A stretch of 34,510 bases of DNA from Lachnospiraceae bacterium (lineage in GTDB: Bacteria; Bacillota_A; Clostridia; Lachnospirales; Lachnospiraceae), in NCBI GenBank assembly GCA_028694115.1, contig JAQUUB010000043.1:1-34510 (forward strand), read 5' to 3'. The notes under the pieces were generated by a model, which made no database searches, was not told the origin of the DNA, and saw nothing but the letters and a program-made list of their open reading frames with translations. The stretch's first letter is position 1. Every line of letters starts with the position of its first letter. A program made the translations under genes and the position numbers. Shown here piece by piece: positions 977-24,445 of the stretch.

Positions 977-2281
977 ATGATGGATAAAAGTTATCACTTG
1001 GAAAATAAAAAGTTTGTACTCTCTATCTCTTATGGAAATTATCAAAAATTTGTAGGAGGTACAGATAAAGTAATTATTGCTCAAAAGAATGCTCTGAAAA
1101 AAGAAGGAGTTTCCTATGTGTACCTATATCCACGTGTTAGCCGCTTTTATCATTTCTGGGAAATCATCATAGACGATGAGTTTTTGGGAATTATTGATAC
1201 AAATAGCTTTTTACAGCTCATAATTAAATTCATAGAGGAGGATCAATGTATCCTGCAAGGGATGTACATCCATCATCTATTAAAAGCAAATCTAAATGAT
1301 ATCCGATTAATTTTCAATAAAATCCAGATGTCAATCATACTATACATTCATGATTACTACATGATCTGTGAAAATTATTTTTTGCTTAAAAATGGAAAAC
1401 AATATTGCGGAGCAGGCAAGGTATGTTCAGAAAAGTGTAAAGTAAATGGTACTTGCAGTAGTTTTCAAAAAGCAATACCTAGATCAAAGGAAATAGAACA
1501 ATTTCTAAAATACTATAAAGAAAGAATCACATGTATTGCGCCATCAGCTTTTGCTGGAAATCTTTTTCAATCGACCTATTCTTTTTTGTCTAATCAAATT
1601 CAAATCGTACCACACCTAATCTTACATGGAGAATTTCAAAAAGAAGAATCGGATATACAGAACGACAGACCTGTCAGAATCGCATATCTGGGACAACAAA
1701 TCAGTATGAAGGGTTGGGAGGTTTATAAACAATTTGTAGAGAGAACACAAGATAGCCAAGAATATGAATATCATTATTTTGGTACTGGCAAGGAAGCAAT
1801 GTCAGGCGTCCATTATCACGAAGTATCATTTCAAAAAAAAGGAAGCAATGCAATGGTGGATGCTCTTAGAAAACATCAAATTGATGCGGTATTTCTCTAT
1901 TCTATCTGGCCAGAGACCTATAGCTTTACGTATTATGAAAGCATGGCGGCTAATTGCTATGTGATTACAAATAAGAATAGTGGTAATATTGCTGACCAGG
2001 TACTGAAGAACAGAAACGGAACCGTATATGAAAACGATACAGAAATTATGAATGATTCCATTAAAGAAAAAATAGGGATATGGAAGAAAAGTGGTAATCT
2101 AGGACCCGAATGGATGGAAGAGAACAATAAAAATCTTTTTACAGATAAAAATGTTGCTGTGGTTATGCAAGAGTATGTTATAAAACCCAAAAGACTAGTG
2201 CAAGTAGCGATTAATATATTACAAATAAGTATTGATATAAAGAGAAGGCTTTTTAGAATGAAACGGAAGTTGAGAGGGTGA
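977..2281 (+). CDS. GT4-like glycosyltransferase with cysteine cluster
   Basis: GT-B fold glycosyltransferase, probably acting in the cytoplasm on the same glycan as its neighbours. The C-terminal half has the donor-site pattern SIWPETYSF with a following E (YYESMA), as in GT4 enzymes. The N-terminal half has the HDYYMIC motif, then four cysteines spaced C-x5-C-x3-C-x5-C, recalling the cysteine-rich loop in the middle domain of the 1049-residue protein. I chose ATG 977 because AAGGAA (965-970) lies six bases before it and it starts two bases after the upstream stop; the longer frame from 935 would overlap that gene by 40 bases without a clear ribosome site. Its TGA overlaps a GTG start of the next frame. 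Sugar specificity is unknown. Confidence 0.82.
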   Translation: MMDKSYHLENKKFVLSISYGNYQKFVGGTDKVIIAQKNALKKEGVSYVYLYPRVSRFYHFWEIIIDDEFLGIIDTNSFLQLIIKFIEEDQCILQGMYIHHLLKANLNDIRLIFNKIQMSIILYIHDYYMICENYFLLKNGKQYCGAGKVCSEKCKVNGTCSSFQKAIPRSKEIEQFLKYYKERITCIAPSAFAGNLFQSTYSFLSNQIQIVPHLILHGEFQKEESDIQNDRPVRIAYLGQQISMKGWEVYKQFVERTQDSQEYEYHYFGTGKEAMSGVHYHEVSFQKKGSNAMVDALRKHQIDAVFLYSIWPETYSFTYYESMAANCYVITNKNSGNIADQVLKNRNGTVYENDTEIMNDSIKEKIGIWKKSGNLGPEWMEENNKNLFTDKNVAVVMQEYVIKPKRLVQVAINILQISIDIKRRLFRMKRKLRG

Positions 2282-4821
2282 ATGGGGGTATTATGCCTAT
2301 GAAAATAAATTTTAAGCAAAAAGGCATTTGGGGAATTTGGTTAGGAATATTCCTTTTTTACTTTTGTTTGATTCTATATAATATTGGAATCGATATTGTT
2401 GTTAACTATACGACTAATGAAAATGGAAGTATTCAAATTTTTACTACAAGTGATGATAGCCAAGAATACAGTGAGAATAATAGTTTTAATAAAGAAATTG
2501 ATCATTCCACTGATCAGGTAGTTGTTTCTACAAAAAACAAGAAAATAGAAAGTCTAAGATTTGATTTTGATAATATTTCAAATATAAATATTAATAAAGT
2601 GAGTTTTAAAATAGGAAGTATCAATTTAATATCTCTCACCCCAGAGGATATTTTAAATCGCATAAAGTTTGTGAATACAGTTGAAATCAATGCGGATTCT
2701 TCGGCTTTATCAATTACATCAATAGGAACAGACAGTTATTTCTCTTTTGATGTTACTACAATAAAAGTACCATTCATGGTTTATATTTTATTTATAACAA
2801 TAGCGATAATTAGTTATTTGATTCTAATAAAAATAGTAAGCTTGTATTTGCGACTACCTATTTGTAAGAGAGAAATTATTAATCGATATACAATAGCTCT
2901 TATATTAGTTGTAGTTGCACTAATCGCAAATATTTATACTTTAAATAGAATAAACAAGAAGAATTATGCGTTTTATTCTATAAAAACGTATGAATCAAGT
3001 AATGATATTGTTAAAAAAGATAAGCTTAGTACAGAATTTGAGGCGGTTACAAACCACCTAAACTCAATGAATATTCCATTATTTGAAAGAGTAATTCCGA
3101 ATGGATCTTTGCACTATCAGATAAAAAATAGTAATGGCAATATAATTTTTGAGAATACGATTCATGATTTTAAAAATATGATTAATGAAAATGCAGAACT
3201 GTGTTTAGATGTTAGTGCTTTACAATTTGAATGTGGAAAAACATACTTATTAGAATTAGATTTTTTACTTGAAAATGAAATTATGCTCCAAAATAATACA
3301 GATCATAGTCTTCGACTAAAGCAAGTTTATGATTTTAAGTATAAACCATTAATGATATCAGTTTTAATCCTCTTGGATGCGATAGGAATTGGTTTTATTC
3401 TTTTTGTTAGAAAAAAAGGTTTTAATAATCAATGTATTATGCTTTTATCGTTGGTAATTGGAATCTTATGTAGCTTTATTATGACACCATGTAATATGGA
3501 TGATGAATATAGACATTTTTTAAGAGCCTATGATATCTCACAAGGAAATATGAGAGTCGGTCTTTCTGAATATTCAGAAGATATTACCGGTAATGTATCG
3601 GTTTTGGAGGATGGTCAAGTCACGATTTCAGAGGTACCCTATAGTATAAATCAACTAAAGTATGTTGACGAGGATTATAATTTTAATGAAAAATCATATT
3701 ATGCAGAAATGAATTATGATACTAATATTGATCGAATAATAGAGATTTCAAAAAGAAGTGATTCACAAAAATATAAAGTATCATTAGCTGCTACATGGTC
3801 TATATCTTGTTTATCTTATTTGCCACAAGTGATTCTTCTTTTATTTGGAAGACTACTTCATTTAAATGGAGTTTGGCTTTATTATCTTGCAAGAATAGGA
3901 AATGTTATATTCTGTAGTTTGATTTTATATTTTTCACTAATGCTTGTACCTAAATATAAGAATCAAATATGCCTTGTTCATTTTATGCCTGCACTAGTAT
4001 TGCTTAGAAGTTCTTGTTCTAGTGATGGATTTCTAAATAGTATTATTCTTTTTACAGTATGCTTAATCCTATATGCGAAAGAGAACCAAATAAAAATTAT
4101 GAACTACAAATATCTGTTGATTTTAACTGTTTGTACATCATATGTTGCCATTATGAAGTTACCTTACATGGTGATTGTTTTATTATTACTTCTATTAGAT
4201 GAGACAAATTATACAAAGTTAACCAGATGTAAGAGTAAAATAGTAAGCTTACTACTTTCTTTTGGCGTTATGGCAGTAAGTTTATTTGCATACAAATCTC
4301 TAAGCTCTTTTATGCAAGCAAAAGCAGTTATGAAGGATATTCCTACAGTTCAAACAAATGCATTAGTATCTAATGAACATATAGATTATATATTACAACA
4401 TTCGAGTACCTTCACTTCGATGATGATTCATGAAATAGTGTTAAGATATGATAGATATTTCGGTGCAATAACAGGAAGTTATTCTCAAATATATGGAAAA
4501 ATTTATATAATAGGATTTTTTGTTATTTTAGTTTTATCTGCTAAAAAATTTAAACTAATTGAAAAGATGTACATATTCTTATTATTTTTAGGAATTATTT
4601 TTACTATTTTATTAGTAGGATTTACATGGCAAATTCCAACGTATGGTTCTGTATGGGGAGTGGGAAGCAGATATTTCGTCCAAATCATGTTACTAATTGC
4701 ATTGGTACTCCCAATTGGAACAAATAAATCGGAAGATATGATGGAAAAAATAGTACAATTATTTTTAATATCAGGGAATATTGGATATATGGTATTATTA
4801 ATGAGTGTTTATCTATTATAG
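2278..4821 (+). CDS. DUF2142-type polytopic membrane glycosyltransferase with N-terminal ectodomain module
   Basis: Large integral membrane protein of about 847 residues, most like DUF2142 (a probable GT-C fold transferase using polyprenyl-phosphate sugars outside the membrane). The DUF2142 core starts near residue 390; the TPCNMDDEYRHF segment matches the acidic first extracellular loop (usually PPxQxPDExxH), and GVGSRYF near the end matches the usual GxQGRYF. Before the core come TM1 (17-38), a beta-rich ectodomain (about 45-160) with LRFDFDNI at 93-100, TM2 (165-190), TM3 (204-222) and a second ectodomain (about 225-355). TM1 to TM3 is shared with the genes at 14135 and 22799. The GTG start overlaps the upstream stop (GTGA); in-frame ATGs at 2293 or 2299 are also possible. 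Likely adds side sugars to exported polymer. Confidence 0.78.
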   Translation: MNGGIMPMKINFKQKGIWGIWLGIFLFYFCLILYNIGIDIVVNYTTNENGSIQIFTTSDDSQEYSENNSFNKEIDHSTDQVVVSTKNKKIESLRFDFDNISNININKVSFKIGSINLISLTPEDILNRIKFVNTVEINADSSALSITSIGTDSYFSFDVTTIKVPFMVYILFITIAIISYLILIKIVSLYLRLPICKREIINRYTIALILVVVALIANIYTLNRINKKNYAFYSIKTYESSNDIVKKDKLSTEFEAVTNHLNSMNIPLFERVIPNGSLHYQIKNSNGNIIFENTIHDFKNMINENAELCLDVSALQFECGKTYLLELDFLLENEIMLQNNTDHSLRLKQVYDFKYKPLMISVLILLDAIGIGFILFVRKKGFNNQCIMLLSLVIGILCSFIMTPCNMDDEYRHFLRAYDISQGNMRVGLSEYSEDITGNVSVLEDGQVTISEVPYSINQLKYVDEDYNFNEKSYYAEMNYDTNIDRIIEISKRSDSQKYKVSLAATWSISCLSYLPQVILLLFGRLLHLNGVWLYYLARIGNVIFCSLILYFSLMLVPKYKNQICLVHFMPALVLLRSSCSSDGFLNSIILFTVCLILYAKENQIKIMNYKYLLILTVCTSYVAIMKLPYMVIVLLLLLLDETNYTKLTRCKSKIVSLLLSFGVMAVSLFAYKSLSSFMQAKAVMKDIPTVQTNALVSNEHIDYILQHSSTFTSMMIHEIVLRYDRYFGAITGSYSQIYGKIYIIGFFVILVLSAKKFKLIEKMYIFLLFLGIIFTILLVGFTWQIPTYGSVWGVGSRYFVQIMLLIALVLPIGTNKSEDMMEKIVQLFLISGNIGYMVLLMSVYLL

Positions 4822-5758: not shown

Positions 5759-5763
5759 AGTTT

Positions 5764-9795: not shown

Positions 9796-12700
9796 ATGAA
9801 GTATAATGTGCCTTTAGTAATAAAAGATAATGAATCGCTAAGCGGATTAATAAAATATATTGTACCTGGAAGTACGGTTTTGGAGTTTGGTTGTGCAAAT
9901 GGCAGGATGACAAGGCACATGAAGGAAGTCCTTAATTGCAAAGTTTATATCATGGAGTACGAACAGGAGGCATTTAACGATGCAATCCAATATGCAGAGG
10001 ATGGAATCTGCGGAGACATTATGCAGTTTGAATGGGTTGCATACTTCCAGAAAATAGAATTTGATTATATCATATTTGCAGATGTATTGGAGCATTTGTA
10101 CAATCCACAGCAGGCATTGAAGGAAACACAGAAATTATTAAAGCGTTCAGGGGAAGTCTTGATTTCGGTTCCCAATATTGCCCATAATGATATATTGATT
10201 AAATTATATTCAAATAAGTTCGACTATACAAAAACAGGTTTACTCGATGATACCCATATCCATTTTTTTGCAGAGGACATGTTGGAAGATTTTTGTGACC
10301 AGGCAGATTATACGATTATTAATCAAGACTACACTTATATTAATACAGGAAATACGGAGCAATTCAACGGGCAGTTGCCAGATATTAATCCATATATTAG
10401 AAATCTGATAGAGTCCAGAGAAAACGGACAGGTTTTCCAATTTCTATTAAGACTTCAGAAAAAGGAATATGCTAAAGAAAATAGAACATACATTCAAAAA
10501 TCGGAAAGTATTAAGGGAACGGTTCCGTGCGTTATTTACTTTGATAAGGGAAATGGATTTGACGAAAACCTTATTCAGGTTCTATATCTGGAAATGAATG
10601 CGGACGGAATATGCAATTTCAAACAGAAAATATCAATAGATGAGGATACCACCAGGGTAAGAATTGATCCATGCGAAAACCAATCCTGTATCATTATAAA
10701 AAAGGATAGCTTTCAAACTTGGGAACATCCAGATATCCAATTAACGGAGAATATTACCAAAGAAGATGTTACATTGTTATTTTGCCCAGATCCGCATATT
10801 ATCATAAGTTGTCAGGGGAAGACAGAGATTAATCTGGATTATGAGATTGCCATGGAGGGTACAACAGCATATCGTGAAGCACTCAATTATTTAACAAATA
10901 ATTTATTGGATCAAAAAATAAAGCTTGAGGAATTACAGAATAGCAAAAATGAGTTAATTTTAACAAATGAAAAGCTAATAAGATTACAGGCAATAGAAGA
11001 AAATTATCATATGATATTAGAAAAACTTCTCCTTGAGACAAAAGACAATATGATACAGCAGTTAAGGATGAGTCGGCAGTTACAGGACAGCCAACAGGAA
11101 ATCGAGCAGCTGAGATGGGAATTGCAAAACACCAACGAGGTTTTGCATGAGCGTCGGATGGCAGCAGATTATTGGGAGAATTGGGCAAAAGTCATGATGA
11201 CTTCTAGAAGCTGGTTTATCACAAAGCCATTTCGCTATGCACTGCGGATAGGTCGAAAGCTAAAATCAGTGGCAGCATCTGTTGTTAGGAAAGATACACC
11301 GAAGGAAACAGTAAGTGTAGAGGATATTAAGTTCTCTGTGATTATGCCAGTGTACAATGTAGATATCAAGTGGCTGGAAAAAGCCATTAACAGCATAAAA
11401 ACCCAGACCTACACGAATTGGGAGCTGTGTATGGTAGATGATGCCTCACCTGACAGAAGCATAGAAGAATATCTGAAAAAGGAAAAAAATCCAAAGATAA
11501 AGGTAAAATTTTTAGAAAAAAACGGCGGCATTTCCCAAGCCTCTAATGAAGCCGCAAAGCTTGCAACGGGCGAGTATGTTCTTTTGATGGATAATGATGA
11601 CGAGATTTCAAGGGATGCCTTAATGAAGTTTTATGAGTGCATCAAAGAAACTGACGCAGATGTCATCTATAGTGATCAGGATATTATTGACGAGGAGGGA
11701 AAACATAGTTGTCCTCTTTATAAGCCAGACTGGTCACCGGATCTATTTCAATCGCAGATGTATCTGGGACATCTGACTGGATTTAAAAGGGAATTATTCA
11801 ATCAGGTGGGAGGATTCCAGAAAGAGTTTGACGGAAGCCAAGACTATGACCTTCTTTTTCGAATTACCGAGAAGACTAGTAACATAGCCCATATTCCGGA
11901 AATCCTGTATTCCTGGAGGAGCTTACCGACCTCTACGGCTACAAATCCAGATGCGAAGCCCTATGCGCAGTATGCAGGACTACACGCAGTACAGGCACAT
12001 CTTGACAGAAAATATGGCAACGGGAACGCGATAGCGAAAGAGACAGACAATCTCTTTGTTTATGATGTACAGTATCAAATGAAGGAAAGCATAATGATTT
12101 CGATTATCATGCCAACCAAGGATCATGCAGATGACTTAAAAAAGGCTGTGGATAGCATCTTCCAAAAATCAAGCTACCGCAATTTTGAAATTATCATTCT
12201 GAACAATAATTCAGAAGAGGAGGAAACATACACCTATTTTGAAGAAGTGACAAGAGAGTATAAAAATGTCAGAGTCATAGAGGCATTTTATGAATTCAAT
12301 TGGTCAAAGCTGAATAACCACGGAATGAAAGAGGCCAAAGGCGATGTATATCTCTTTTTAAACAATGACGTTCAAATCATTTCATCCGATTGGATGGAGC
12401 GATTGGCTTCCAAAGCTCTTTTAGAGGAGACCGGTGTAGTGGGAGCACTACTTCTGTATGAGGATGGAACAATCCAGCATGGAGGAGTCGTGGTAGGATT
12501 TGGCGGTTATGCAGATCATGCTTATAAAGGAATGCGACCAGAACATTCTGGAACACCGTTTATATCGCCAGTAGTAACCAGAAATGTAACAGCTGTTACG
12601 GGTGCCTGTATGGCAATAGCGAAGAAAACTGTGGAGGCTATTGGAGCATTTGACGAGCACTTCATTATCTGTGGAAGTGATGTGGAGATATGTATCAGAG

Positions 12701-14109
12701 CTTTCCAGAAGGGCTTTGTAAATATATACGATTCCAACGTGAGGCTATATCACTATGAGTCAAAGAGCAGAGGAACTTTTATCCCGCAGATAGACTTTGA
12801 TCTTTCTGATGAATTATATAAATCATATCGAGAAAATGGAGATAGCTATTATAATAATAAGCTGGATTATCAGTGTTATATTCCAAGAGTAAAGGATCAT
12901 CCATCTATCATTCAGCAGCAACCACTGGATGTGATGAATGTTGGAGTTGTAGAAATAGAACCGATTCATTTCAGGAAGGTGAGCAGGAATCAGAAGAGAA
13001 TCAATATTATACTGCCGTCTTTAAATCCGGAGCATGTTTTTGGTGGAATAGCTACTGCTTATAAATTTTTTGAAACCTTATGCAATGAGAACAAATGTGA
13101 ATGCAGGATTATTCTGGTAGATGTGGATCCTAATGAAGCGGCTGTGGAATTATACGGAGAGGAATATTTATTTGTATCTGCTGAAGATACGATAGAGACA
13201 CCACGCCAGATTGTAGCATTTGCAAACCGGTATAACAGAACGATTCCCGTTTCGGACAAGGATTACTTTATATTCACAGGCTGGTGGACTGCTTATTGCA
13301 TTCAGGAGGAATATTCCAACTGGATAGGAAAGGGCTTGTCACCAAACCCATTTATTTATCTGATACAGGATTATGAGCCAGGATTTTATGCTTGGTCAAC
13401 CCGCTATATGCTGGCAGACGCATCGTATCGTACCAGCTTCGAGCAGATTGCGGTATTTAACTCAAAGGAATTAAAGACCTATTTTGATAATATGGGTTAT
13501 CAATTTGCAAAGGGTTATGTATTTGAGCCAATCCTAAATGTAGGACTGAAAAATCACCTGCTTAAATTGGATGAGACAATAGAAAAGAAAAAACAGATTC
13601 TAGTGTATGGACGACCGGGAACCGAAAGAAATGCATTTGCCCTATTGGTAAAGGCTCTTAGGAAATGGGTAGAAATACAGGAAGACGTAGAGGAATGGAA
13701 AATCCTTTCGGCTGGAGAGTATCATAAACCGGTCGCATTAGGCCGCGGTAAGATGTTAGAGCCGGTAGGAAAGCTGTCGATTGAGAAATATGCAAAAACG
13801 CTAGAGGAAACCTATGCAGGAGTTTCCCTAATGGTTTCTCCACATCCGAGCTATCCACCATTGGAGATGGCAGTATTTGGAGTGAAGGTCATCACCAATA
13901 CCTATGCAAACAAGGATTTGTCGGAGTTTAGCTTTAATGTAAGTTCCATAAGCGAAGCAAGCCCATTCCATATTGCAAACTGTCTGGAAGATCTATGCAA
14001 TCGGTATGATGGAAAGGGAACCATCGATACAAAGACAAATGCAGCATACTGCAATGGCAAAGATAGCTTTCCGTTTATAAAAGAACTAAATGCAGAACTG
14101 TTTTTGTAA
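9796..14109 (+). CDS. Giant fusion: SAM methyltransferase, beta module, coiled coil, two GT2 domains, WsaF-like GT (1437 aa)
   Basis: Probable chain-building and chain-capping machine for the main polymer. Order: class I methyltransferase (1-230; motif I LEFGCANG 29-36, ADVLEH 95-100); beta-rich module (243-352; VIYFDKGNGF, RVRIDP, PDPHIII); predicted coiled coil (about 365-455, rich in L, E, Q, K); GT2-A (513-745; FSVIMPVYN, VDDASPD, MDNDDE); GT2-B (767-1020; SIIMPTKDH, LNNDVQ, HGGVVVG); and a C-terminal domain (1068-1437) with GGIATAYKF, FTGWWTAY and IQDYEPGFYAWS, the pattern of WsaF-type rhamnosyltransferases. Methyltransferase plus two rhamnosyltransferase domains is the known layout of WsaE from Geobacillus S-layer glycan synthesis; here a WsaF-like domain is attached too. 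The beta module recurs in a pseudogene at 25991. Rhamnose as the sugar is inferred from family resemblance. Confidence 0.88.
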   Translation: MKYNVPLVIKDNESLSGLIKYIVPGSTVLEFGCANGRMTRHMKEVLNCKVYIMEYEQEAFNDAIQYAEDGICGDIMQFEWVAYFQKIEFDYIIFADVLEHLYNPQQALKETQKLLKRSGEVLISVPNIAHNDILIKLYSNKFDYTKTGLLDDTHIHFFAEDMLEDFCDQADYTIINQDYTYINTGNTEQFNGQLPDINPYIRNLIESRENGQVFQFLLRLQKKEYAKENRTYIQKSESIKGTVPCVIYFDKGNGFDENLIQVLYLEMNADGICNFKQKISIDEDTTRVRIDPCENQSCIIIKKDSFQTWEHPDIQLTENITKEDVTLLFCPDPHIIISCQGKTEINLDYEIAMEGTTAYREALNYLTNNLLDQKIKLEELQNSKNELILTNEKLIRLQAIEENYHMILEKLLLETKDNMIQQLRMSRQLQDSQQEIEQLRWELQNTNEVLHERRMAADYWENWAKVMMTSRSWFITKPFRYALRIGRKLKSVAASVVRKDTPKETVSVEDIKFSVIMPVYNVDIKWLEKAINSIKTQTYTNWELCMVDDASPDRSIEEYLKKEKNPKIKVKFLEKNGGISQASNEAAKLATGEYVLLMDNDDEISRDALMKFYECIKETDADVIYSDQDIIDEEGKHSCPLYKPDWSPDLFQSQMYLGHLTGFKRELFNQVGGFQKEFDGSQDYDLLFRITEKTSNIAHIPEILYSWRSLPTSTATNPDAKPYAQYAGLHAVQAHLDRKYGNGNAIAKETDNLFVYDVQYQMKESIMISIIMPTKDHADDLKKAVDSIFQKSSYRNFEIIILNNNSEEEETYTYFEEVTREYKNVRVIEAFYEFNWSKLNNHGMKEAKGDVYLFLNNDVQIISSDWMERLASKALLEETGVVGALLLYEDGTIQHGGVVVGFGGYADHAYKGMRPEHSGTPFISPVVTRNVTAVTGACMAIAKKTVEAIGAFDEHFIICGSDVEICIRAFQKGFVNIYDSNVRLYHYESKSRGTFIPQIDFDLSDELYKSYRENGDSYYNNKLDYQCYIPRVKDHPSIIQQQPLDVMNVGVVEIEPIHFRKVSRNQKRINIILPSLNPEHVFGGIATAYKFFETLCNENKCECRIILVDVDPNEAAVELYGEEYLFVSAEDTIETPRQIVAFANRYNRTIPVSDKDYFIFTGWWTAYCIQEEYSNWIGKGLSPNPFIYLIQDYEPGFYAWSTRYMLADASYRTSFEQIAVFNSKELKTYFDNMGYQFAKGYVFEPILNVGLKNHLLKLDETIEKKKQILVYGRPGTERNAFALLVKALRKWVEIQEDVEEWKILSAGEYHKPVALGRGKMLEPVGKLSIEKYAKTLEETYAGVSLMVSPHPSYPPLEMAVFGVKVITNTYANKDLSEFSFNVSSISEASPFHIANCLEDLCNRYDGKGTIDTKTNAAYCNGKDSFPFIKELNAELFL

Positions 14110-14134: not shown

Positions 14135-16750
14135 ATGAAAAAAACTCGGTCATTCGGAGAGTGGTTAAAAAGCGGGATAGCAATAGGATTATTTTCGGTT
14201 GTTGTCGCGATTCTTGCGGGAAAAGCCACAAATATTTCAATAAATGTTCAAAGTGAAGAAGTTGGAAAACTACAATGTTATTATGATGCTCTCGGAAAAG
14301 GAAACTATTCCGAGGAAAAATCCATAAGCCATTCTATTTCAGAAACAGGAGATAAAACTTATGTTTTTCCAATTCCAATAACATCACTTAAGAATATTAG
14401 ATTTGATTTTGATGGAATGGAAGAAATTATGATTCATTCTATTAAAATTAAGCTATTCGGTGTTTCAGTCGTAAATTATTCCGGGTCCCAGATGAACTCT
14501 GTTTTGTATATGGCAAGCAATACAAAGCTGATACAAAAAGAAAATTATGCAGTAGTCCAGGCAATAGGAGCAGATCCGTTTGTTTTTATTAATTATGGTA
14601 GTAATCTATGGCTATTATGGATGACCGTAGTTTTATTTGTGGTAAGTGTTCTCATTGCTACTTTTGTCTACGCAATGTTTCGATATAGTTACCTGTTATT
14701 TAGAGCAAACAGAGGGAAAATAAAGCTTTTATATAATCATTTGGAAATAGTCTTCACGGGGTTAATGATCCTTACGGTGGTTGTCTTCCGTCTGATGCTT
14801 CCATGTACGGATTCCTTTAATAGTGAGCGATATGCAAGAGAGCAAAGTAAGACACCAGTTGTCATAAAGAATAGTAATATGAGTTATACCTTCTATTCGC
14901 CTTACGCCCATATGGAGAGCCTGGCATTGAAGTTTGAAACTTTGAATTGCGAGAATTCCAAGGGAAATCTGAACATTCATATAAGTGTGGATCAGAAGGA
15001 ACAATACAGCGGCACTTACATGGTAGAGGAGATAGAAATTTCACCATGGATTATGATTCCATTGAATCATATAGGGAAATTTGGAAGTGAAATAGAAATA
15101 AAGATGATGTCTTCGGGAATGAAATCCAATGAAACGGTATCTCTTTATACCAGCGAAAACAATGTACTGTCCTCCATGGGCGGAAGGATTTTTTCTGATG
15201 GGAAGCTTATAGAAAATCAACCAGCCATAGAGATTACTTTCCTTTCCCCCAAATGGAATAGTTATGTGTGGCCTATCCTATGTTCGCTAGGTATTCTCTT
15301 TGGAATTTTAAAATGGTATCAGATCAGTGAGATAGACGAGAAGAAAAAAAGAGCCCTATCATCGCTATGGAAAGTTGTTGGGATAGCAGGGTTTATGCTT
15401 GTGGGAGTGATTCTTCTATCCATAAGGAGTAGCGAATTCATCACAAGACCTGTCATGATTGCGGAGGATGCAATCTATCTGGGTAATATATTCCATAATG
15501 GGCTTTTCCATTCTATTTTCAAAACCAGAATGGGAGGCAGTGCTGATTTTCAAAATAGTGGTTCTTATTTACTTATTTATCTTGCACTAAAAATAAACAG
15601 TGCCTTATTCGGATTTAATTTGGCAGCCTTGCCAACAGTAATTGGGATAGTGGCAAATACTTTTTGGAGCTTCACTGCGGTACTAGGTCTTAAGACCTTT
15701 CAAAAGATAAATACATTGACAGGCTATGTGATATATGGAGTTATCTTGCTTATTCCGATGGGCAATACAGGAGGCGAAGTATTTGGGCTGGTGCTAAACA
15801 CAGTATATCTTTGGCCCGTATTATGTGCCATTTTGCTATTTAAGAAATATGAAAAAGAAGAGAAAAGGCTGTTGCCGAATGTTTGCTATGGGCTAATATG
15901 TATCGTAGCGGGTCTATCATTTCCTGTAAGCTATGTTGTAGTAGCCGTATATCTATTTTGCTCTATTATCAGGGCTTGGCAAAAGAGAGAAATAAAGGAA
16001 CAATTCCTTCGGGATTTGGTTGTACTCATCTGTATGATAATTGGAGTGTTTTTACTTCCGACATTGCTTTTTGCCCAGGGGGCAGCTGCAACTATGCAGA
16101 TTAGGCCAGAGTCAATCGTTGAGTTTGTAATAGCCAGACATTTTCTATATCCATTTGTTTTTTATGCATATACCAGTTTAAGTGATGGGGTAGTGGTCGT
16201 GTTATTCATCCTGTTTTTAATTCTTACATGTGGGGTAGCCATAAAGGAGTTAAAAGCAAAGAAGGAACTTAGTCCATATATACTATACATGCTTATGACA
16301 TATGGAGTTTGTCTTAGCTCTGCAGTCATGCGTATTCGAATGTCCGAGATGTTTCAGTCCTATAGCAGCAGTTATCCAGACAGATATTATTTTGGTTGCA
16401 ATATGATGTCGATTCTTTTGGTATTGTATGCACTATCTATTTTGCGTAAGAATCATGCAAAGATACTACGACAAGTATCCGCAATCGTTGTATGTATTCC
16501 CTGCCTTCTTTTATTGTTTAACACAAGGTTATTCGAATTTAGTGCTACGGGTTCAAACTTTTATGGATCGGAATACCGAGGGACTCTTCAAGAGATGATA
16601 ACGAAGGAAATCGACGCGATGGAAGATAAAGAAGATGCACAACTATTCTTGAATGTAAGGCAGTATCCGATTGCGAAGAATGCCGACTTTTCCACGTCGA
16701 TACCCCTGTCTTATGCATTACAGACGGAAAAGAACTGGAAATACCGGTAG
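14135..16750 (+). CDS. Large polytopic membrane protein, GT-C-like, with two N-terminal ectodomains (871 aa)
   Basis: Integral membrane protein likely to act outside the membrane on exported glycan. Layout: TM1 (12-29), beta ectodomain (about 40-155) with IRFDFDGM at 88-95 and IGADPF at 144-149, TM2 (158-182), TM3 (205-222), a second beta-rich ectodomain (about 235-375), TM4 (about 378-392), then a polytopic core from about 413. The first loop of the core has an acidic pair (MIAEDAIYLGNIF), as expected for the catalytic loop of GT-C enzymes using polyprenyl-phosphate sugars; I cannot assign a named family. The TM1-TM3 unit aligns with the N-termini of the genes at 2278 and 22799. GAGGGG ribosome site is well placed. 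It precedes a GtrA-like gene and a polyprenyl-phosphate-type GT2, its likely donor suppliers. Confidence 0.72.
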   Translation: MKKTRSFGEWLKSGIAIGLFSVVVAILAGKATNISINVQSEEVGKLQCYYDALGKGNYSEEKSISHSISETGDKTYVFPIPITSLKNIRFDFDGMEEIMIHSIKIKLFGVSVVNYSGSQMNSVLYMASNTKLIQKENYAVVQAIGADPFVFINYGSNLWLLWMTVVLFVVSVLIATFVYAMFRYSYLLFRANRGKIKLLYNHLEIVFTGLMILTVVVFRLMLPCTDSFNSERYAREQSKTPVVIKNSNMSYTFYSPYAHMESLALKFETLNCENSKGNLNIHISVDQKEQYSGTYMVEEIEISPWIMIPLNHIGKFGSEIEIKMMSSGMKSNETVSLYTSENNVLSSMGGRIFSDGKLIENQPAIEITFLSPKWNSYVWPILCSLGILFGILKWYQISEIDEKKKRALSSLWKVVGIAGFMLVGVILLSIRSSEFITRPVMIAEDAIYLGNIFHNGLFHSIFKTRMGGSADFQNSGSYLLIYLALKINSALFGFNLAALPTVIGIVANTFWSFTAVLGLKTFQKINTLTGYVIYGVILLIPMGNTGGEVFGLVLNTVYLWPVLCAILLFKKYEKEEKRLLPNVCYGLICIVAGLSFPVSYVVVAVYLFCSIIRAWQKREIKEQFLRDLVVLICMIIGVFLLPTLLFAQGAAATMQIRPESIVEFVIARHFLYPFVFYAYTSLSDGVVVVLFILFLILTCGVAIKELKAKKELSPYILYMLMTYGVCLSSAVMRIRMSEMFQSYSSSYPDRYYFGCNMMSILLVLYALSILRKNHAKILRQVSAIVVCIPCLLLLFNTRLFEFSATGSNFYGSEYRGTLQEMITKEIDAMEDKEDAQLFLNVRQYPIAKNADFSTSIPLSYALQTEKNWKYR

Positions 16751-16782: not shown

Positions 16783-17223
16783 ATGAAAAAAGATAATATA
16801 AAAAAGATTTTAATGCAAATCGTAAAGTTCCTTATGGTTTCCGGTACTGGATGGGTACTTGACTTTTCTGTATATATTTTTCTGACGTATAAGCTTGGAA
16901 GTATCGTTGCCTACGCGAATATGATCAGTGCCATACCGGCAGTTACCTTTGTGTTTTTCGTATCGACACGTAAGATTTTTGATACGAAATCAGGAAAAGT
17001 CCCTCTGGGGGCAAAATATCTGATATACTTTTTTTATCAGATATTATTGGTGAGTATCGTATCTTTTTGGGGACAAATATTATATAATTTTATATTAGGT
17101 ACTTTTTTCATGGAGTATGGATGGGTAGCGGATAACTTAAAGCTATTGACAAAGGTATTCATTACACCGATTACAATGATCATGAATTTTTTAGTATTAA
17201 AAATACTTGCAGAGAAGCTATAG
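16783..17223 (+). CDS. GtrA-like family membrane protein
   Basis: Small four-helix membrane protein of 146 residues, the usual size for GtrA. FLMVSGTGWVLDFSVYIFL (about 17-35) matches the family start (F-x-x-x-G-x-x-x-x-x-D) and FVFFVSTRKIF the second helix. GtrA proteins are thought to flip undecaprenyl-phosphate-linked monosaccharides for side-chain addition outside the cell. The next gene, 11 bases on, is a polyprenyl-phosphate-type GT2, the normal partner, and the preceding GT-C-like protein could be the transferase that uses the flipped sugar. Confidence 0.85.
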   Translation: MKKDNIKKILMQIVKFLMVSGTGWVLDFSVYIFLTYKLGSIVAYANMISAIPAVTFVFFVSTRKIFDTKSGKVPLGAKYLIYFFYQILLVSIVSFWGQILYNFILGTFFMEYGWVADNLKLLTKVFITPITMIMNFLVLKILAEKL

Positions 17224-17234
17224 GAGGTCATGAT

Positions 17235-18047
17235 ATGAAAGAAAAGATATTACTATTTATACCAACATATAATTGTGAAAAGCAGATTGCACGGGTACTG
17301 AGACAAGTCGATGATGAGGTTCTTGATTATATAACAGAAGTGATTGTAATCAATAACCGCAGCCAGGATAAAACAGAGGATGAGGTCATCCGATTTGCAG
17401 AGGAAAATACTCAGGTACCAGTGAAGCTATTACGTAATAGGGATAATTACAGCTTAGGTGGATCACATAAAGTAGCATTTCAATATGCGAAGGACAACGG
17501 ATTTGATTACGTGATTGTCCTTCATGGAGATGATCAGGGGGATATCCATGATTTACTCTTTTGGATAAAAAAGGGAAAGCATAGAAAATATAAATCTTTA
17601 CTCGGTTCCCGATTTGAAAAGAAATCAACACTTGTGAATTATTCTAGATTCCGAATCATAGGAAACTATGTATTTAATATCTTTATATCCACCATGGCAG
17701 GAAAAAGACTGACGGATTTAGGATCAGGTCTGAATATGTATCAAACAGAATATCTGAAGAGTGGATTTTATATGACTTTTCCAAATAACCTAACGTTTAA
17801 TGTATACATGCTCCTTTATGGTTTATATTCCAAGTCACAGTTTCACTTTTTCCCCTTATGCTGGAGAGAAGAGGATCAGGTTAGCAATGCAAAGTTATGG
17901 AAACAGTCTACACAGATACTTCAATTAACCATGCAGTATGTATTTACAAAAGATAAGCTGTTTGGAGTTCAGAAAAATGAATTTTCAGAGATAGAGTATA
18001 CCTATGATGTCATACATGAGAATAGAGGGGTAAAAGAAAATGAATAA
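17235..18047 (+). CDS. GT2 glycosyltransferase, polyprenyl-phosphate sugar synthase type
   Basis: Member of the DPM/DPG-synthase-like GT2 group that transfers a sugar from a nucleotide to polyprenyl phosphate on the inner membrane face. ILLFIPTYNCEKQI at the N-terminus, INNRSQDKT (39-47) and HGDDQGD (97-103, the metal-binding DxD) are the key motifs, with GSRF and the TDLGSGLNMY acceptor-loop segment further on. No C-terminal TM helices are evident in this 270-residue form, so membrane anchoring may come from the GtrA-like partner. GGAGG lies upstream of the ATG. Its stop overlaps the next start by 8 bases, implying coupled translation with the nucleotidyltransferase, which may make its donor. 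Confidence 0.83.
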   Translation: MKEKILLFIPTYNCEKQIARVLRQVDDEVLDYITEVIVINNRSQDKTEDEVIRFAEENTQVPVKLLRNRDNYSLGGSHKVAFQYAKDNGFDYVIVLHGDDQGDIHDLLFWIKKGKHRKYKSLLGSRFEKKSTLVNYSRFRIIGNYVFNIFISTMAGKRLTDLGSGLNMYQTEYLKSGFYMTFPNNLTFNVYMLLYGLYSKSQFHFFPLCWREEDQVSNAKLWKQSTQILQLTMQYVFTKDKLFGVQKNEFSEIEYTYDVIHENRGVKENE

Positions 18048-18783: not shown

Positions 18784-20720
18784 TGATTTTTTATCTTTTA
18801 ATTATAGCAATGAGTCTGCTTTTTCTAGGACATTATTTTAAGGTTTTGCGATGGAAGCAGATTATCGAAGTTTACGAAGAACCAAATGATAAAAATCTAT
18901 TTCGTTCTCTATCGGTAGGATATCTGGTCAATTTTCTTATGCCATTTCGTGCAGGTGATTTGGTTCGTGGCTTATTGGCTGGACGTAAGATGAAAAACGG
19001 TTTTTCTTTTTCTATTTCATCAATCATTGTAGATCGTTATCTTGATGTCATTGTAGTTGGATTAATCTTTTTTATATTGTCTATCTGTGGATTTTCTTCT
19101 GAAGAAATTGTGGAATCGACAAAATTTTATTGTGGTTCTGCCATCATATTGATTTTATTAGCTGCAGTAGCAATTAGATTTAGTAAGTTTATTAAAAAAA
19201 TTATTAAAGCAATATGCGCTGTATTTAACTCAAAGATACAATTGCGGTTGTTATTTTTTGGCTGGGCAGTTATTACTGCATTTAAAGATACGTTTAAAAG
19301 AGTAAGTAAAAGAAAACTTTTTATTTACACCCTATGTATGTGGGCAGGTTATCTGACGTCTTATTATACAATGGCTGTTTTTATTACAAAGCTAGGATTG
19401 AAATTTAGTATTTTAGATATATTTACCATGCTTTTTTCCAGAGGAAACTTGGATGTAGCATCGGTACAAATGACAAAAAGTCTTACCGTGATAGGTCTTC
19501 CGATTCAGTCTATTTTGGGAATATATTTGATCTTTCCTTTGATAACGTTGATTCTTTTTTCATTTTGTAAGAAAAACAAGTCTAATATTGGGGAAAGTAT
19601 TGAAAAGAAGCTGAATCTTCTGCCACAGATTAATGAAACAGATCGGTTAAATTTTCTTGAAAATTATTTTACAGGAGAGAGAAGAGAGTCCTTAAATAAG
19701 TATTTAGAGGTCAACCGAGATATCAATATTATCCAGGATTATTCTGCTGGTTCTAATGCAACTACAATGTTATGTATGAACAATAAGCAGACGTTCTATA
19801 GAAAGTATGCATTTGGAAGTGATGGAAATAAATTAGCGGAGCAGGTAGTCTGGCTTAAAGAACATGAAAAAGACCTTCCATTACCAGTCATCCTCAGTGA
19901 GCAGTCAGAAGATGGATACTGCTGCTATGATATGGAATACAATGCCTCTATCGTTGATTTGTTTTGTTTTATGCACTCCATGCCACTAGATCGAAGCTGG
20001 GATATCTTGCAGCAGGCATTGGAAACCTTTCAGGACAATTTATATCAGAGGACAGCAAGACCGCTTGATACCAGAAAGCTAGAGGAATATATTAATCAAA
20101 AAGTAACTACAAACGTAAAGAAAATTGAAAATGCAAAAGAGACAAAATCCTTGATGGATTATGAAGACATCATCATCAATGGAGTAACGTACAAAAATCT
20201 TCCTCAATTAAAAAAATACCTAGAGTACGAGCATTTATACTCTGTTTTTAATTATGATATCTGCGCGGATATTCATGGAGACTTTACGATTGAAAATGTA
20301 ATCTGCTATAGCAGTCCGGTAGAAGGAAAGACCTTTTATTATATTGATCCAAACACTGGAAATGTTCACGATTCACCAAATCTTGATTATGGGAAGCTCC
20401 TGCAATCGTTACATGGTGGTTATGAATTTTTAATGAAGACACAGGCGGTAAGAGTAGAGGGAAATAAGATTGATTTTCTTTTTACAAAATCTTATACATA
20501 TAATGAAATCTTCTGGAAATATAAAGCTTACATGGAAGAGAATTTCACTAGGGAAAAGGTGAAAAGCATCTTTTATCATGAGGTTGTCCATTGGCTCCGT
20601 TTGATGCCATATAAGATAGAAAAGAACGGAAAGAGGGCAATACTTTTCTATGCGGGACTGATAATGGTTTTTAACGATGTGGTGAAATGGTTTGAGGAGG
20701 AAAAAGGTGAAAAAGAGTAA
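18783..20720 (+). CDS. Fusion of LPG-synthase-TM (flippase-like) membrane domain and APH/choline-kinase-like domain
   Basis: Two-part protein of 645 residues. Residues 1-265 are a polytopic membrane domain of the lysylphosphatidylglycerol_TM/UPF0104 type: LGHYFKVLRWKQII, LVNFLMPFRAGDLVRG (about 48-63) and SSIIVDRYLDV (about 79-89) are its hallmarks. After a linker, residues 290-640 look like an aminoglycoside/choline-kinase-type phosphotransferase: HGDFTIENVI (498-507) corresponds to the catalytic HxDxxxxN loop and YIDPN (about 520-524) to the metal-binding D. Between nucleotidyltransferase and HAD phosphatase genes, the kinase could phosphorylate a sugar or alcohol while the membrane half binds or moves a lipid-linked partner. 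I do not know a characterised protein with this pairing. The start overlaps the upstream TAA. Confidence 0.78.
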   Translation: MIFYLLIIAMSLLFLGHYFKVLRWKQIIEVYEEPNDKNLFRSLSVGYLVNFLMPFRAGDLVRGLLAGRKMKNGFSFSISSIIVDRYLDVIVVGLIFFILSICGFSSEEIVESTKFYCGSAIILILLAAVAIRFSKFIKKIIKAICAVFNSKIQLRLLFFGWAVITAFKDTFKRVSKRKLFIYTLCMWAGYLTSYYTMAVFITKLGLKFSILDIFTMLFSRGNLDVASVQMTKSLTVIGLPIQSILGIYLIFPLITLILFSFCKKNKSNIGESIEKKLNLLPQINETDRLNFLENYFTGERRESLNKYLEVNRDINIIQDYSAGSNATTMLCMNNKQTFYRKYAFGSDGNKLAEQVVWLKEHEKDLPLPVILSEQSEDGYCCYDMEYNASIVDLFCFMHSMPLDRSWDILQQALETFQDNLYQRTARPLDTRKLEEYINQKVTTNVKKIENAKETKSLMDYEDIIINGVTYKNLPQLKKYLEYEHLYSVFNYDICADIHGDFTIENVICYSSPVEGKTFYYIDPNTGNVHDSPNLDYGKLLQSLHGGYEFLMKTQAVRVEGNKIDFLFTKSYTYNEIFWKYKAYMEENFTREKVKSIFYHEVVHWLRLMPYKIEKNGKRAILFYAGLIMVFNDVVKWFEEEKGEKE

Positions 20721-21270: not shown

Positions 21271-21299
21271 TAATAATTTATTATAAGGAGTTAGAAGAT

Positions 21300-22727
21300 A
21301 TGTTATTTAGTTCAATGATTTTTTTATGGTTATTTTTGCCGATTGTGGTATTAAGCTATTATTTTGAAAAGGATAAGTACAGGAATTTATTACTTCTTCT
21401 TGCAAGTCTGATTTTTTATTCATGGGGAGAACCAAAATATATTTTTCTTTTATTATTTTCCATTGTAGTTAACTATTTTTTTGGAATAGTAATAAGCGAT
21501 TCAGTGAAAGAAAAAAAACAAAAACTATTGTTAGCGTTGTGTATAGTAATCAATTTAGGCTTACTAGGATATTTTAAGTATTTTAATTTCATTATGGATA
21601 ATATTAATTTAGTTATGAAAGGTAATATCAGTACAAAAAATATAATTTTACCATTAGGAATATCTTTCTACACTTTTCATTCATTATCTTATGTTATTGA
21701 TATTTATAGAGCTAAAGCTAATAAATTAGAAGTAAAGGTACAGCGTAATTTTGTAAATCTAGCTCTATATTTCTCTTTTTTCCCTCAATTAATTGCAGGG
21801 CCTATAATAAAATATCATGATATCCAAGAACAATTAAATCAGGTAAGGTGCATTGATAAAAGATGCATAACATACGGAATAAAAAGATTTACATATGGAC
21901 TGGGTAAGAAGGTGCTGATTTCAAATGTTATGGCAAAAGTGGCTGACTCTATTTTTAATTCTGATATTAATTCGATGAATAGCGCAATTGCTTGGATTGG
22001 TATAATTAGCTACACATTCCAGATATATTATGATTTCTCGGGGTATTCTGATATGGCTATTGGATTAGCAAAAATATTCGGGTTTGATTTTAAAGAGAAC
22101 TTTAATTATCCATACATATCATTATCCATCAAAGAATTTTGGAGAAGATGGCATATATCACTATCAACATGGTTTAAAGAATACTTATATATACCACTAG
22201 GTGGAAATAGAAAAGGAAGATTTAGAACCTATATTAATTTATTCATTGTGTTTCTCACAACAGGAATATGGCATGGAGCGAGTTGGAATTTTGCTATTTG
22301 GGGAATTTACCATGGCATGTTTATTATTCTAGAAAACTGGAAATGGGGAAAAATATTAGAAAATAACAAGTTTAAAATTTTAAATCATGTCTATACATTT
22401 TTAGTTATTATGGTTGGATGGGTATTTTTTAGAACAGAAAGTATAACTGCTGCACTAAAATTTATAAAGCTTCTATTTTGGCCAACAAGTAGTATTTTTG
22501 TATATGGAATAGGATATTACTTAAATTCTCAATACATAATTACATTAGTAATTGCACTTCTTTTCTGTGGATTCATACAAAATAGATGGCATAAGGTTAG
22601 AGACATTTTATACGATAAAGAAAAAACATATATTTATGAACTTATATCAATACCGCTTATCTTAGGTTTATGTTTCATTTCATTGATTAGTGGAACCTAT
22701 AACCCATTTATTTATTTTAGATTTTAA
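21300..22727 (+). CDS. MBOAT family O-acyltransferase (AlgI/DltB-like)
   Basis: Polytopic membrane enzyme that passes acyl (usually acetyl) groups from a cytoplasmic donor to an extracytoplasmic acceptor enzyme. The 475-residue length, LPLGISFYTFHSLSYVIDIY, FWRRWHISLSTWFKEYLYIP (280-299) and the catalytic IWHGASWNF (His 325) are diagnostic of the AlgI group. The next gene encodes an AlgJ/AlgX-like SGNH protein, its usual partner, so the pair should O-acetylate the exported polysaccharide. A clear AGGAG ribosome site precedes the ATG. The pair is noticeably AT-richer in feel than the glycosyltransferases upstream and is flanked by an intact and a decayed HAD gene, suggesting insertion as a unit. 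Confidence 0.92.
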   Translation: MLFSSMIFLWLFLPIVVLSYYFEKDKYRNLLLLLASLIFYSWGEPKYIFLLLFSIVVNYFFGIVISDSVKEKKQKLLLALCIVINLGLLGYFKYFNFIMDNINLVMKGNISTKNIILPLGISFYTFHSLSYVIDIYRAKANKLEVKVQRNFVNLALYFSFFPQLIAGPIIKYHDIQEQLNQVRCIDKRCITYGIKRFTYGLGKKVLISNVMAKVADSIFNSDINSMNSAIAWIGIISYTFQIYYDFSGYSDMAIGLAKIFGFDFKENFNYPYISLSIKEFWRRWHISLSTWFKEYLYIPLGGNRKGRFRTYINLFIVFLTTGIWHGASWNFAIWGIYHGMFIILENWKWGKILENNKFKILNHVYTFLVIMVGWVFFRTESITAALKFIKLLFWPTSSIFVYGIGYYLNSQYIITLVIALLFCGFIQNRWHKVRDILYDKEKTYIYELISIPLILGLCFISLISGTYNPFIYFRF

Positions 22728-22798
22728 TAAATCATATAGTAAGGATAAAGAAAAATATTACTATATATTAAAGAGTATTTGGAGAGGAACAGATATAG

Positions 22799-24445
22799 AT
22801 GACAATTAATAAGAGTATAAAAAAGATAATAACCTGCATGATATGCAATATCATATTAGCCATGTTTATGTATTTAATTTGCCTACAATTTATATCTATG
22901 AGCGTAAAGTTTACGCCCTATAGTAATGGTAGGATTCAGCTTTATTATAATAATCAATCGGGAACTGACAGTTATTTTGATGAGTCACATTCGGAAATAA
23001 AGGAAATTGTTGAAAGTGATAGAATAATAACTTTTTCAAAATCTTTAACAGAACTAGAGAAAATCCGATTAGATTTCAAACGAATGAAAGAAATATCAAT
23101 AGATGAAATAGTAATTAAAAGCTGTGGGATACCATTAATCAGATTTAACCCAAATGAGATAAATAGAATATTTAATTTGAGATACGCAGTACAGGTAGAT
23201 AACAAGGAAGAACAAGTACTATTAAAAATAATTTCTGATCCAGCATATATTGGAACAGCTGATATGCCGACACAGAAAGTCAGAATTAGAGTCTTGATAA
23301 TGGCATGGATTATTTCAATTATTGTAGTATCTTTCATGAGGAACAAGATATTTAAGCATACTTCAGTAGATAATATTCTGATTGCATTTACAATTTTTAT
23401 ATTAATAGTTCCTACGCTGATCTGGAATATTATATTACCAGAGAATAATGTAACAAACGAAAACAGAGTACTAAAAGATAAACCGGAATTAAAATTGAAC
23501 AAGATAATAGACTATCCATCAGAAATGAATGATTATGTTAATGATCATCTACCTTTCAAACAAAATATAGTGACAATAAATAGCTTTATTAAGTACAAAT
23601 TATTATCAATGTCTCCAGAGGATTATGTTATAAAGGGAAAAGATGATTGGTTATTTTATAATTCAAAGGCAAGAGGAGAAACAGATAGTCTGGGCGATTA
23701 TTTAGGAACCATTCATTATAAAAAAGAGGAACTAGAAATAATAAAAAATGAATTATTAGAAAAACAAAAATACTTTTCGGATAGAGGTATAGAATTCTAC
23801 ATAATGTTATGCCCTAATAAGGAGCAGATTTATTCTGAGTATATGCCGGATTATTTTGTAGTACAAAATCCAGAAAGCAGGCTGGATGAATTGGTTTCCT
23901 ACTTAGAAGAAAACACGGATATTCCGATTATCTATCTGAAACAGAAGCTTATAGAAAATAAGAACAACAATAGACCGTTATATTTTAAGTGGGACACTCA
24001 TTGGAATAATGCAGGGGGATACGTAGGATTTTATGAATTAATGAAGGCAATGGGCAGACAACAAGGAATATTAAGTTATAGTGAAATGAATTTCACTCAA
24101 TATGAGCGACTAGATGCAGATATGACGAGAATGATAAATATGACACCTGGAGGAAAAGATTATAACTATAATCCTGAAAATTTTAAGAATGATATCGAAG
24201 CAATTAATAAAAAAACAGAAAATGATGCAACTTATTACATGAGTAATGGTACGGATAAAGAAAAAATAATCTTGTATCGGGATTCATTTGGAGAAGCATT
24301 AATCCCTTATATTAGCAAGACCTTTAATGATAGTATTTTTATAACTAATAGAATCATTGACAATGAACTTATTGAAAGTGAAAAGCCTGATATTATTGTA
24401 TATGAGGTTGTAGAAAGAGGGATTGAGGTATTGAAAAATTTCTGA
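22799..24445 (+). CDS. AlgJ/AlgX-like SGNH O-acetyltransferase with N-terminal membrane ectodomain module
   Basis: Membrane-anchored protein whose C-terminal ectodomain (about 220-548) is an SGNH-hydrolase-like O-acetyltransferase. WLFYNSKAR starts the domain, DTHW (399-402) supplies the catalytic Asp/His and YRDSFGEA (Ser 496) the nucleophile, as in AlgJ, AlgX and DHHW proteins. It would take acetyl groups from the adjacent MBOAT protein and place them on exported glycan. Unusually for this family the N-terminus has TM1 (11-33), a beta-rich ectodomain (about 42-155) with IRLDFKRM at 89-96, TM2 (163-180) and TM3 (192-213). This TM1-TM3 unit aligns with those of the genes at 2278 and 14135. 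Ribosome site GGAGAGG precedes the ATG. Confidence 0.85.
   Translation: MTINKSIKKIITCMICNIILAMFMYLICLQFISMSVKFTPYSNGRIQLYYNNQSGTDSYFDESHSEIKEIVESDRIITFSKSLTELEKIRLDFKRMKEISIDEIVIKSCGIPLIRFNPNEINRIFNLRYAVQVDNKEEQVLLKIISDPAYIGTADMPTQKVRIRVLIMAWIISIIVVSFMRNKIFKHTSVDNILIAFTIFILIVPTLIWNIILPENNVTNENRVLKDKPELKLNKIIDYPSEMNDYVNDHLPFKQNIVTINSFIKYKLLSMSPEDYVIKGKDDWLFYNSKARGETDSLGDYLGTIHYKKEELEIIKNELLEKQKYFSDRGIEFYIMLCPNKEQIYSEYMPDYFVVQNPESRLDELVSYLEENTDIPIIYLKQKLIENKNNNRPLYFKWDTHWNNAGGYVGFYELMKAMGRQQGILSYSEMNFTQYERLDADMTRMINMTPGGKDYNYNPENFKNDIEAINKKTENDATYYMSNGTDKEKIILYRDSFGEALIPYISKTFNDSIFITNRIIDNELIESEKPDIIVYEVVERGIEVLKNF

Follow-up and report, generated by a model that had tools for sequence, protein, structure and literature searches.

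Three membrane proteins at a surface-glycan locus

The window analyzed here is a 34.5-kb stretch of DNA (33.5% G+C) from a Lachnospiraceae bacterium (contig JAQUUB010000043.1, positions 1 to 34,510). Judged by its genes, the window is a surface-glycan locus that contains several glycosyltransferases, an ATP-binding cassette (ABC) exporter pair, a WsaF-bearing fusion protein, a GtrA-like protein accompanied by a GT2 enzyme, and an MBOAT/SGNH pair. Three of the encoded proteins, a DUF2142 protein, a GT-C-like protein and an SGNH protein, begin with the same module, which consists of an ectodomain placed between two transmembrane (TM) helices, TM1 and TM2. A preliminary description of this DNA had reported the three open reading frames (ORFs), and all of them are found where it had placed them (Table 1). 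Here, we delimit the module, compare it with relatives in other genomes and discuss it as a candidate glycan-binding domain.

Table 1. Features of the window. A7 and A8 are profiles of the extracytoplasmic and cytosolic forms of the domain, respectively; values in exponent notation are E-values.
Feature	Position	Strand	Evidence and remarks
TM1-ectodomain-TM2 cassette, DUF2142 protein	2320..2865	+	ectodomain residues 41-165 (2398-2772); TM limits approximate, from hydropathy
TM1-ectodomain-TM2 cassette, GT-C-like protein	14159..14689	+	ectodomain residues 33-157 (14231-14605); TM limits approximate
TM1-ectodomain-TM2 cassette, SGNH protein	22814..23353	+	ectodomain residues 35-162 (22901-23284); TM limits approximate
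Cytosolic domain copy inside the 9796-14109 protein (residues 236-355)	10501..10860	+	A8 2.9e-37 (profile includes this row); A7 versus A8 1.1e-9
Lone cytosolic-type copy in 163-residue ORF 26511-27002	26637..26999	+	extracytoplasmic profile without window rows 2.5e-4; Smith-Waterman z 18 with the 9796 copy
DUF2142 polytopic membrane protein, 847 residues	2278..4821	+	PF09913 1e-22 at residues 392-806; core from TM3 onward
GT-C-like polytopic protein, 871 residues	14135..16750	+	GT-C label inferred from topology and neighbours
SGNH (AlgX/PatB-like) protein, 548 residues	22799..24445	+	PF16822 1.5e-20; PatB1 5v8e 2.9e-10; DTHW at residue 399
MBOAT protein	21300..22727	+	PF03062 2.3e-34
GtrA-like flippase (16783-17223) and GT2 (17235-18047)	16783..18047	+	PF04138 2.6e-6 (28.1 bits, cut-off 26.1); PF00535 1.9e-13
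ABC-2 exporter permease (Wzm/TarG-like), 271 residues	4943..5758	+	PF01061 1.1e-14; without module here
ABC exporter ATPase (Wzt/TarH-like), 260 residues	5814..6596	+	PF00005 1.1e-20; 6amx 4.2e-63; TarH 6jbh 4.7e-55
Methyltransferase-domain-(coiled coil, by eye)-GT2-GT2-WsaF protein	9796..14109	+	Pfam; WsaF 2x0d 7.9e-108

Homology of the three ectodomains

The motif series that had been quoted for the three N-termini is found and can be aligned in all of them, except that the aspartate of SDPAYI in the SGNH protein lies one column off the other two aspartates. With the TM helices excluded, Smith-Waterman comparison yields z-scores of 12.3 for DUF2142/GT-C, 12.6 for DUF2142/SGNH and 17.5 for GT-C/SGNH. 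None of 1000 shuffles reaches the score of any pair, and the alignment spans most of the length of the TM-free ectodomains. When a single ectodomain serves as phmmer query against 978 ORFs, both of its counterparts are recovered, with E-values between 1.1e-9 and 4.4e-6. All three ectodomains are also matched by a profile from which window rows are absent (2.5e-18 for the DUF2142 protein, 3.7e-16 and 2.8e-11), and profiles that leave out one window copy at a time give 2.2e-19, 2.7e-18 and 5.5e-14; the non-window rows were originally found by window-seeded profiles, so these scores measure likeness rather than blind discovery. Significant matches thus remain after the masking of TM helices (z 12.3-17.5; profile 2.5e-18 to 2.8e-11), at which, according to the preliminary description, a false resemblance should disappear.

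Could the likeness come from chance or composition? The contig is AT-rich and the motifs are short, and AT-rich, beta-rich ectodomains might resemble each other for this reason alone. However, composition-keeping shuffles never reach the observed scores (0/1000 for each pair), reversed-ORF decoys give 0/978 matches at 1e-3 for each of the profiles A11 (extracytoplasmic), A8 and A9 (permuted), and full-length matches occur in proteins outside the profile, such as a permease (G071, 3.8e-15) and G199 (1.4e-12). These results already refute a chance origin, to which we assign a negligible probability. The sequences establish the three window ectodomains as homologous, and the claim of one homologous module on three unrelated cores is supported.

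The window copies are approximately 15-31% identical to other copies. Searches of 5.8 billion proteins with the single SGNH and GT-C modules (E<=0.01) return the window itself only, and neither a genome scan with the GT-C-like protein nor three scans of viral contigs gives any match.

Module boundaries and topology

The module had been described as a TM-ectodomain-TM-TM plan. The TM1-ectodomain-TM2 part is indeed shared, but TM3 belongs to the core, as DUF2142 homologues and exporter permeases indicate, and we reject the longer unit. The DUF2142 homologue P0005 (34% identity over 95% of the protein) carries the module, whereas P0006 and P0007 lack it and have their N-terminus just before TM3; a Butyrivibrio protein (L001) has a similar module-less start by eye. 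In exporter permeases that bear the module, it closes with TM2 and is followed by a TarG/Wzm-like core. Solved TarG/Wzm chains align to these permeases only from at least position 193 of the 459-position profile, that is, after TM2, and TM3 lies outside the unit. We infer the same cassette boundary, after TM2, for the GT-C-like and SGNH proteins.

Net charge is positive in the N-termini and the TM2-TM3 linkers (+2 to +5) and negative in the ectodomains (-1 to -7). From this charge distribution, the positive-inside rule predicts that the ectodomain lies outside the membrane. Such anatomy suggests that the two-helix unit keeps the topology of whatever protein comes after it.

Predicted fold and conserved residues

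The AlphaFold2 model of the GT-C ectodomain is a beta-sandwich of eleven strands and one short helix (predicted local distance difference test score, 87.6; predicted template modelling score, 0.83). The model of the cytosolic form is too uncertain for fold comparison. An R-x-D motif lies in the central strand, and its arginine and aspartate are invariant in 24/24 aligned copies. A second aspartate, in D(P) before the last strand, is present in at least 90% of the copies and is displaced by one column in the SGNH copy of the window.

Among the solved folds ranked by the searches, the nearest to the model is that of the carbohydrate-binding module (CBM) family CBM60, which we take to be paired with CBM36 in a circular-permutation link; a jelly roll of the CBM60 type is a tentative assignment. 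The fold searches show ranked entries only, such that nothing follows from the lack of other CBM families in them. The predicted fold is compatible with sugar binding. At the sequence level, the A7 profile matches one chain among PDB sequences at E<=10, a methanogenesis marker protein (0.043), and reveals no relation to CBM60 or CBM36. Against Pfam and NCBIfam the module gives sub-threshold matches only, with nothing above the curated cut-off, and a known domain of these databases is therefore rejected.

Cytosolic and permuted forms

A related domain is found in proteins without predicted TM helices. In terminator-like proteins it lies C-terminal to a methyltransferase (the 9796-14109 protein of the window, L029, L034, L039 and L087; Pfam and profile), and it also occurs in proteins that are kinase-like by eye (L037, L012 and L102); the coiled-coil labels are likewise assigned by eye. 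Comparison of the extracytoplasmic and cytosolic profiles (A7 versus A8) gives 1.1e-9, with a score of 58.3 versus 13.5 for the best of 60 column shuffles. The link appears only via intermediates, among which an LtaS-like protein that combines the two sets of motifs (L004) is a bridge. Compared directly, the cytosolic and the extracytoplasmic copies of the window show no significant relation: window-only profiles give P 0.18, pairwise z-scores range from -0.7 to 4.2, and the copy in the 9796-14109 protein reaches only 0.044 against the extracytoplasmic profile without window rows. The window also contains a lone cytosolic-type copy in ORF 26511-27002, which is possibly the remnant of a larger gene. 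This ORF consists mostly of the domain, and its surroundings are poor in long ORFs.

In the permuted form, represented by profile A9, the DP strand precedes the QIYY strand. After rotation of the A9 columns, the score against A7 rises to 94.9 over 106 columns (70.1 over 65 before), and that against A8 rises to 64.6 over 107 columns (46.8 over 52 before). When A9 is cut at column 72 and the moved block alone is shuffled, 0/100 shuffles reach the rotated score, for A7 and A8 each. These sequence comparisons are good evidence that the A9 form is a circular permutant.

Distribution over other proteins

Relatives were sought by profile searches of genomes sampled by family, class and phylum, in which a limited number of candidates was scored at first look, such that copies can be missed. 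Matches are found in 12/397 genomes of the family with A2 (E<=0.01), a tally that contains some false matches, with L013 and L014 among the weak ones. They are found in 8/391 genomes of the class with A3 (0.01), in 34/397 of the family searched again with A7 (0.001) and in 7/398 of the phylum with A11 (0.001). Three regions (L041, L042 and L043) and ORF L040_2700 are false positives by eye and were removed before the domains were counted. The 39 regions and the window together contain 62 domains, of which 32 match A11 best, 19 match A8 and 11 match A9.

The search for the module on other membrane enzymes, which the preliminary description had called for, yields relatives on permeases and on LtaS-like, YfhO, GT-C-like and acyltransferase proteins. 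ABC-2 permeases of 457-468 residues carry 12 of the 32 A11 domains (L034, L073-L082 and L103); their identity comes from Pfam for L034, and from alignment and a match to the window permease for the others. Further A11 copies reside on LtaS-like proteins of the sulfatase fold (L027 and L028; PF00884) and on YfhO (L029 and L040; PF09586). Copies of the A9 form occur on YfhO (L080), DUF7657 (L030) and acyltransferase 3 (L033) proteins. In L038, the domain is located at the far C-terminus of an SGNH/AlgX protein (A9) and of a protein that is sulfotransferase-like by eye. Some proteins are short and consist of hardly more than the ectodomain plus TM helices (L032 and L036). The polytopic protein at L102:6911-9019 bears two tandem C-terminal copies; it adjoins a kinase-like and a GH99-like protein (by eye), each with one copy. 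A 1315-residue protein of Butyrivibrio proteoclasticus P18 (L026:10541-14485) combines an N-terminal permuted domain, a polytopic core and long C-terminal repeats of the YEYDEAGN type.

The module does head all three window enzymes, as had been stated, but the statement is too narrow. The domain is not restricted to sugar-adding or acetylating enzymes, since it is also present on 12 exporter permeases and on cytosolic terminator-like proteins. By sequence assignment, most relatives belong to proteins for the synthesis, export or modification of a surface polymer.

Exporter context and resemblance within a locus

Wzm and Wzt, identified by a match to the window proteins, are both present in 26/36 domain-bearing regions, as a raw frequency; when the 12 regions with a module-bearing permease are excluded, both are present in 14/24. 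Wzt is 397-496 residues long in 25/26 regions with Wzm and Wzt and is short only in L038 (237 residues) and the window (260 residues). The window Wzt thus has no room for a C-terminal carbohydrate-binding domain, and the module might be regarded as a substitute for it. This idea does not hold in general, given the long Wzt of most loci, which leaves room for a cytosolic checkpoint too. In L034, the sole locus checked for Wzt_C, this domain is present alongside the module-bearing permease.

Copies from one locus tend to resemble each other. The comparison covers 59 of the 62 domains, excluding those shorter than 100 residues, and a pair in L036 (z 39.2, like cores) was set aside. Seven pairs of the same type on different proteins of one locus, from four loci, give z 13.3-18.3 in six cases (one in L038, one in L030 and four in the window, one of which is the pair of cytosolic copies); the seventh pair, in L073, gives -0.6. 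Among the 623 pairs from different loci, the median z is 4.9 and the 95th percentile is 15.6, and the 66 permease-permease pairs have a median of 10.0. The one-sided p for the seven pairs is 0.0013; the pairs are few and non-independent, and orthologous pairs elsewhere exceed the same-locus values. The tree shows no supported grouping of the three window copies, and recent duplication within the locus is therefore unsupported, although their mutual single-sequence scores are at or near the top. The resemblance provides a hint that same-locus copies may face one ligand.

Neighbouring genes

The GT-C-like protein matches no Pfam family above cut-off and no PDB entry. The genes for a GtrA_DPMS_TM protein and a GT2 enzyme follow directly after its gene, and their products are probable partners of the GT-C-like protein. 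Its topology and these neighbours make it likely that it serves as the transferase in an extracytoplasmic glycosylation set of three components; the third role, polyprenyl-phosphate sugar synthase, would putatively fall to the GT2 enzyme. The SGNH protein is probably the acyltransferase partner of the MBOAT protein, as judged from their sequences. Further downstream, at 24677-25692, two ORFs that lie in different frames (24677-25219 and 25237-25692) are the parts of one acyltransferase-3 gene, which reflects a disruption or an assembly error. The protein encoded at 18783-20720 has an LPG_synthase_TM region at its N-terminus; the next several hundred residues match no Pfam family and are kinase-like by eye (ICADIHGDFTIENVI...YIDPNTGN). 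The 9796-14109 protein appears to be a WsaE/WsaF-like enzyme for chain synthesis and capping that is fused as one polypeptide.

Proposed function and alternative explanations

What would one domain do at the front of such different proteins? On balance, we propose that the shared N-terminus is a mobile CBM-like beta-sandwich by which the exporter and the modifying enzymes hold the polymer. Fold and topology are predicted, and a glycan is taken as the putative ligand because it is the only substrate that all domain bearers would share. The polymer would be built inside on a lipid carrier, capped by a methyltransferase- or kinase-bearing protein and released via Wzm/Wzt, and GT-C and acyl enzymes would decorate it outside. 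Flanked by its two TM helices, the beta-sandwich would lie close to the external face of the membrane, as part of a cassette that could precede any protein with a cytosolic N-terminus. In the window, the exported polysaccharide would be held near three post-export active sites, namely those of the putative DUF2142 and GT-C-like sugar transferases and of the SGNH acyltransferase. In the relatives, a permease-borne module would encounter the chain at the exit of the ABC exporter, and methyltransferase or kinase-like terminators would use the cytosolic form to keep hold, inside the cell, of a chain that is growing or capped. A chain held beside an active site would be offered at a higher local concentration and with added specificity. 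The preliminary description had suggested a common recognition or docking part. This suggestion fits one module on unrelated cores, a predicted fold in keeping with sugar binding and a prevalence of surface-polymer proteins, but the part is not specific to enzymes. More tentatively, a single glycan-reading domain may serve the whole ABC-dependent line, from the terminator through the outer face of the permease to the post-export enzymes. Its same-locus copies would be tuned to one polymer as a locus-specific address, and it would have spread as a topology-neutral cassette and a circular permutant; we regard this broader scheme as possible but doubtful.

The resemblance of same-locus copies would also be expected from homotypic contacts, and the ectodomains might thus bind a shared protein, either one another or the exporter, such that the enzymes assemble at the exit of the ABC transporter and the ligand is not a glycan. 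In 12 loci it is the permease that bears the module, and in other loci it is enzymes; this distribution, together with the short ectodomain-TM proteins, agrees with such docking. However, the window permease lacks the module, many regions (up to 20 kb each) contain a single copy, and the cytosolic form would require another partner, and we consider protein docking rather unlikely. An inert beta-sandwich that stabilizes or positions large polytopic enzymes, and that spreads by recombination within glycan loci, would agree with the strong divergence from copies elsewhere, and the invariant R-x-D and D could form a structural salt bridge. A mere spacer does not readily explain the concentration on glycan-handling proteins, the presence on both membrane faces or the tandem copies of L102, which leaves this explanation with a low probability. 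Finally, the domain could contact lipid head groups or the undecaprenyl carrier in the manner of PLAT/C2 domains. This seems improbable, given that some cytosolic enzymes for which no TM helix is predicted also have the domain and that the L038 proteins bear it at their far C-terminus; moreover, O-acyl transfer by MBOAT/SGNH pairs is not known to use an undecaprenyl carrier.

If the proposed glycan-holding role is correct, the domain would provide a sequence handle on how extracytoplasmic tailoring enzymes are told which polymer to modify.

Comparison with known systems

CBMs on glycan-assembly enzymes are already known (PMC11127046, PMC11231755), and the view that no domain with this role had been described in these families needs qualifying. 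The GT-C enzyme ORF12 (GT136) of Citrobacter youngae O1 has a C-terminal CBM that, when isolated, bound the unmodified O-polysaccharide, and ORF12 without its CBM was nonetheless active in that assay (PMC11127046). ORF12 and, putatively, the window protein are each a GT-C transferase that modifies an ABC-exported polymer and carries an extracytoplasmic beta domain. The CBM of this one enzyme is C-terminal, whereas at the N-terminus of the window proteins each copy follows TM1 and precedes TM2, and C-terminal placement is seen in only some relatives, such as the L102 tandem.

For the cytosolic form, a putative counterpart is the Klebsiella pneumoniae O7 terminator ORF6-O7, which has the order methyltransferase-kinase-CBM-coiled coil-GT2-GT2. 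Its Ig-like CBM is known from an AlphaFold model only, its function was not pursued, and CBMs had not been identified in other terminators, according to that report (PMC11231755). A 1457-residue plasmid protein of Pseudomonas asturiensis with an ORF6-O7-like order by eye, found with a methyltransferase/kinase-like query, matches A11 (2.8e-7) and A9 (6.9e-7) in a set of 7 sequences and the cytosolic profile A8 at only 0.033; its gene adjoins a permease and an ATPase gene. A Citrobacter braakii methyltransferase from the same search does not match the family. The role of the terminator CBM, a question that the ORF6-O7 report leaves (PMC11231755), may gain a family of relatives for comparison.

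The C-terminal carbohydrate-binding domain of Wzt (PF14524) recognizes the chain in the cytosol as part of the ATPase (PMC9445017). The present module likewise adds a beta domain to an ABC glycan exporter; unlike the Wzt domain, it is extracytoplasmic and resides on 12 permeases. This location suggests that, if our proposal holds, an ABC glycan exporter can bear, in addition to the reader on Wzt, one that faces outward. Circular permutation between forms is a further likeness to CBM60, in so far as the title of entry 2xhh links two CBM families by circular permutation. In the open-licence full-text literature, we found no description of the permuted form, of the membrane cassette, of its presence on permeases or of the domain's occurrence on both faces of the membrane.

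Other parts of the window proteins also resemble described ones. DUF2142 genes in streptococcal rhamnan loci encode polytopic membrane proteins (PMC9746298). In the synthesis of the Geobacillus S-layer glycan, WsaE combines a methyltransferase with two glycosyltransferase modules, WsaF is a separate protein, and wzm and wzt lie upstream; WsaE is a described case of a methyltransferase-bearing capping protein (PMC2943079). The 9796-14109 protein of the window joins the WsaE-like and WsaF-like parts in one polypeptide, which also bears the beta domain.

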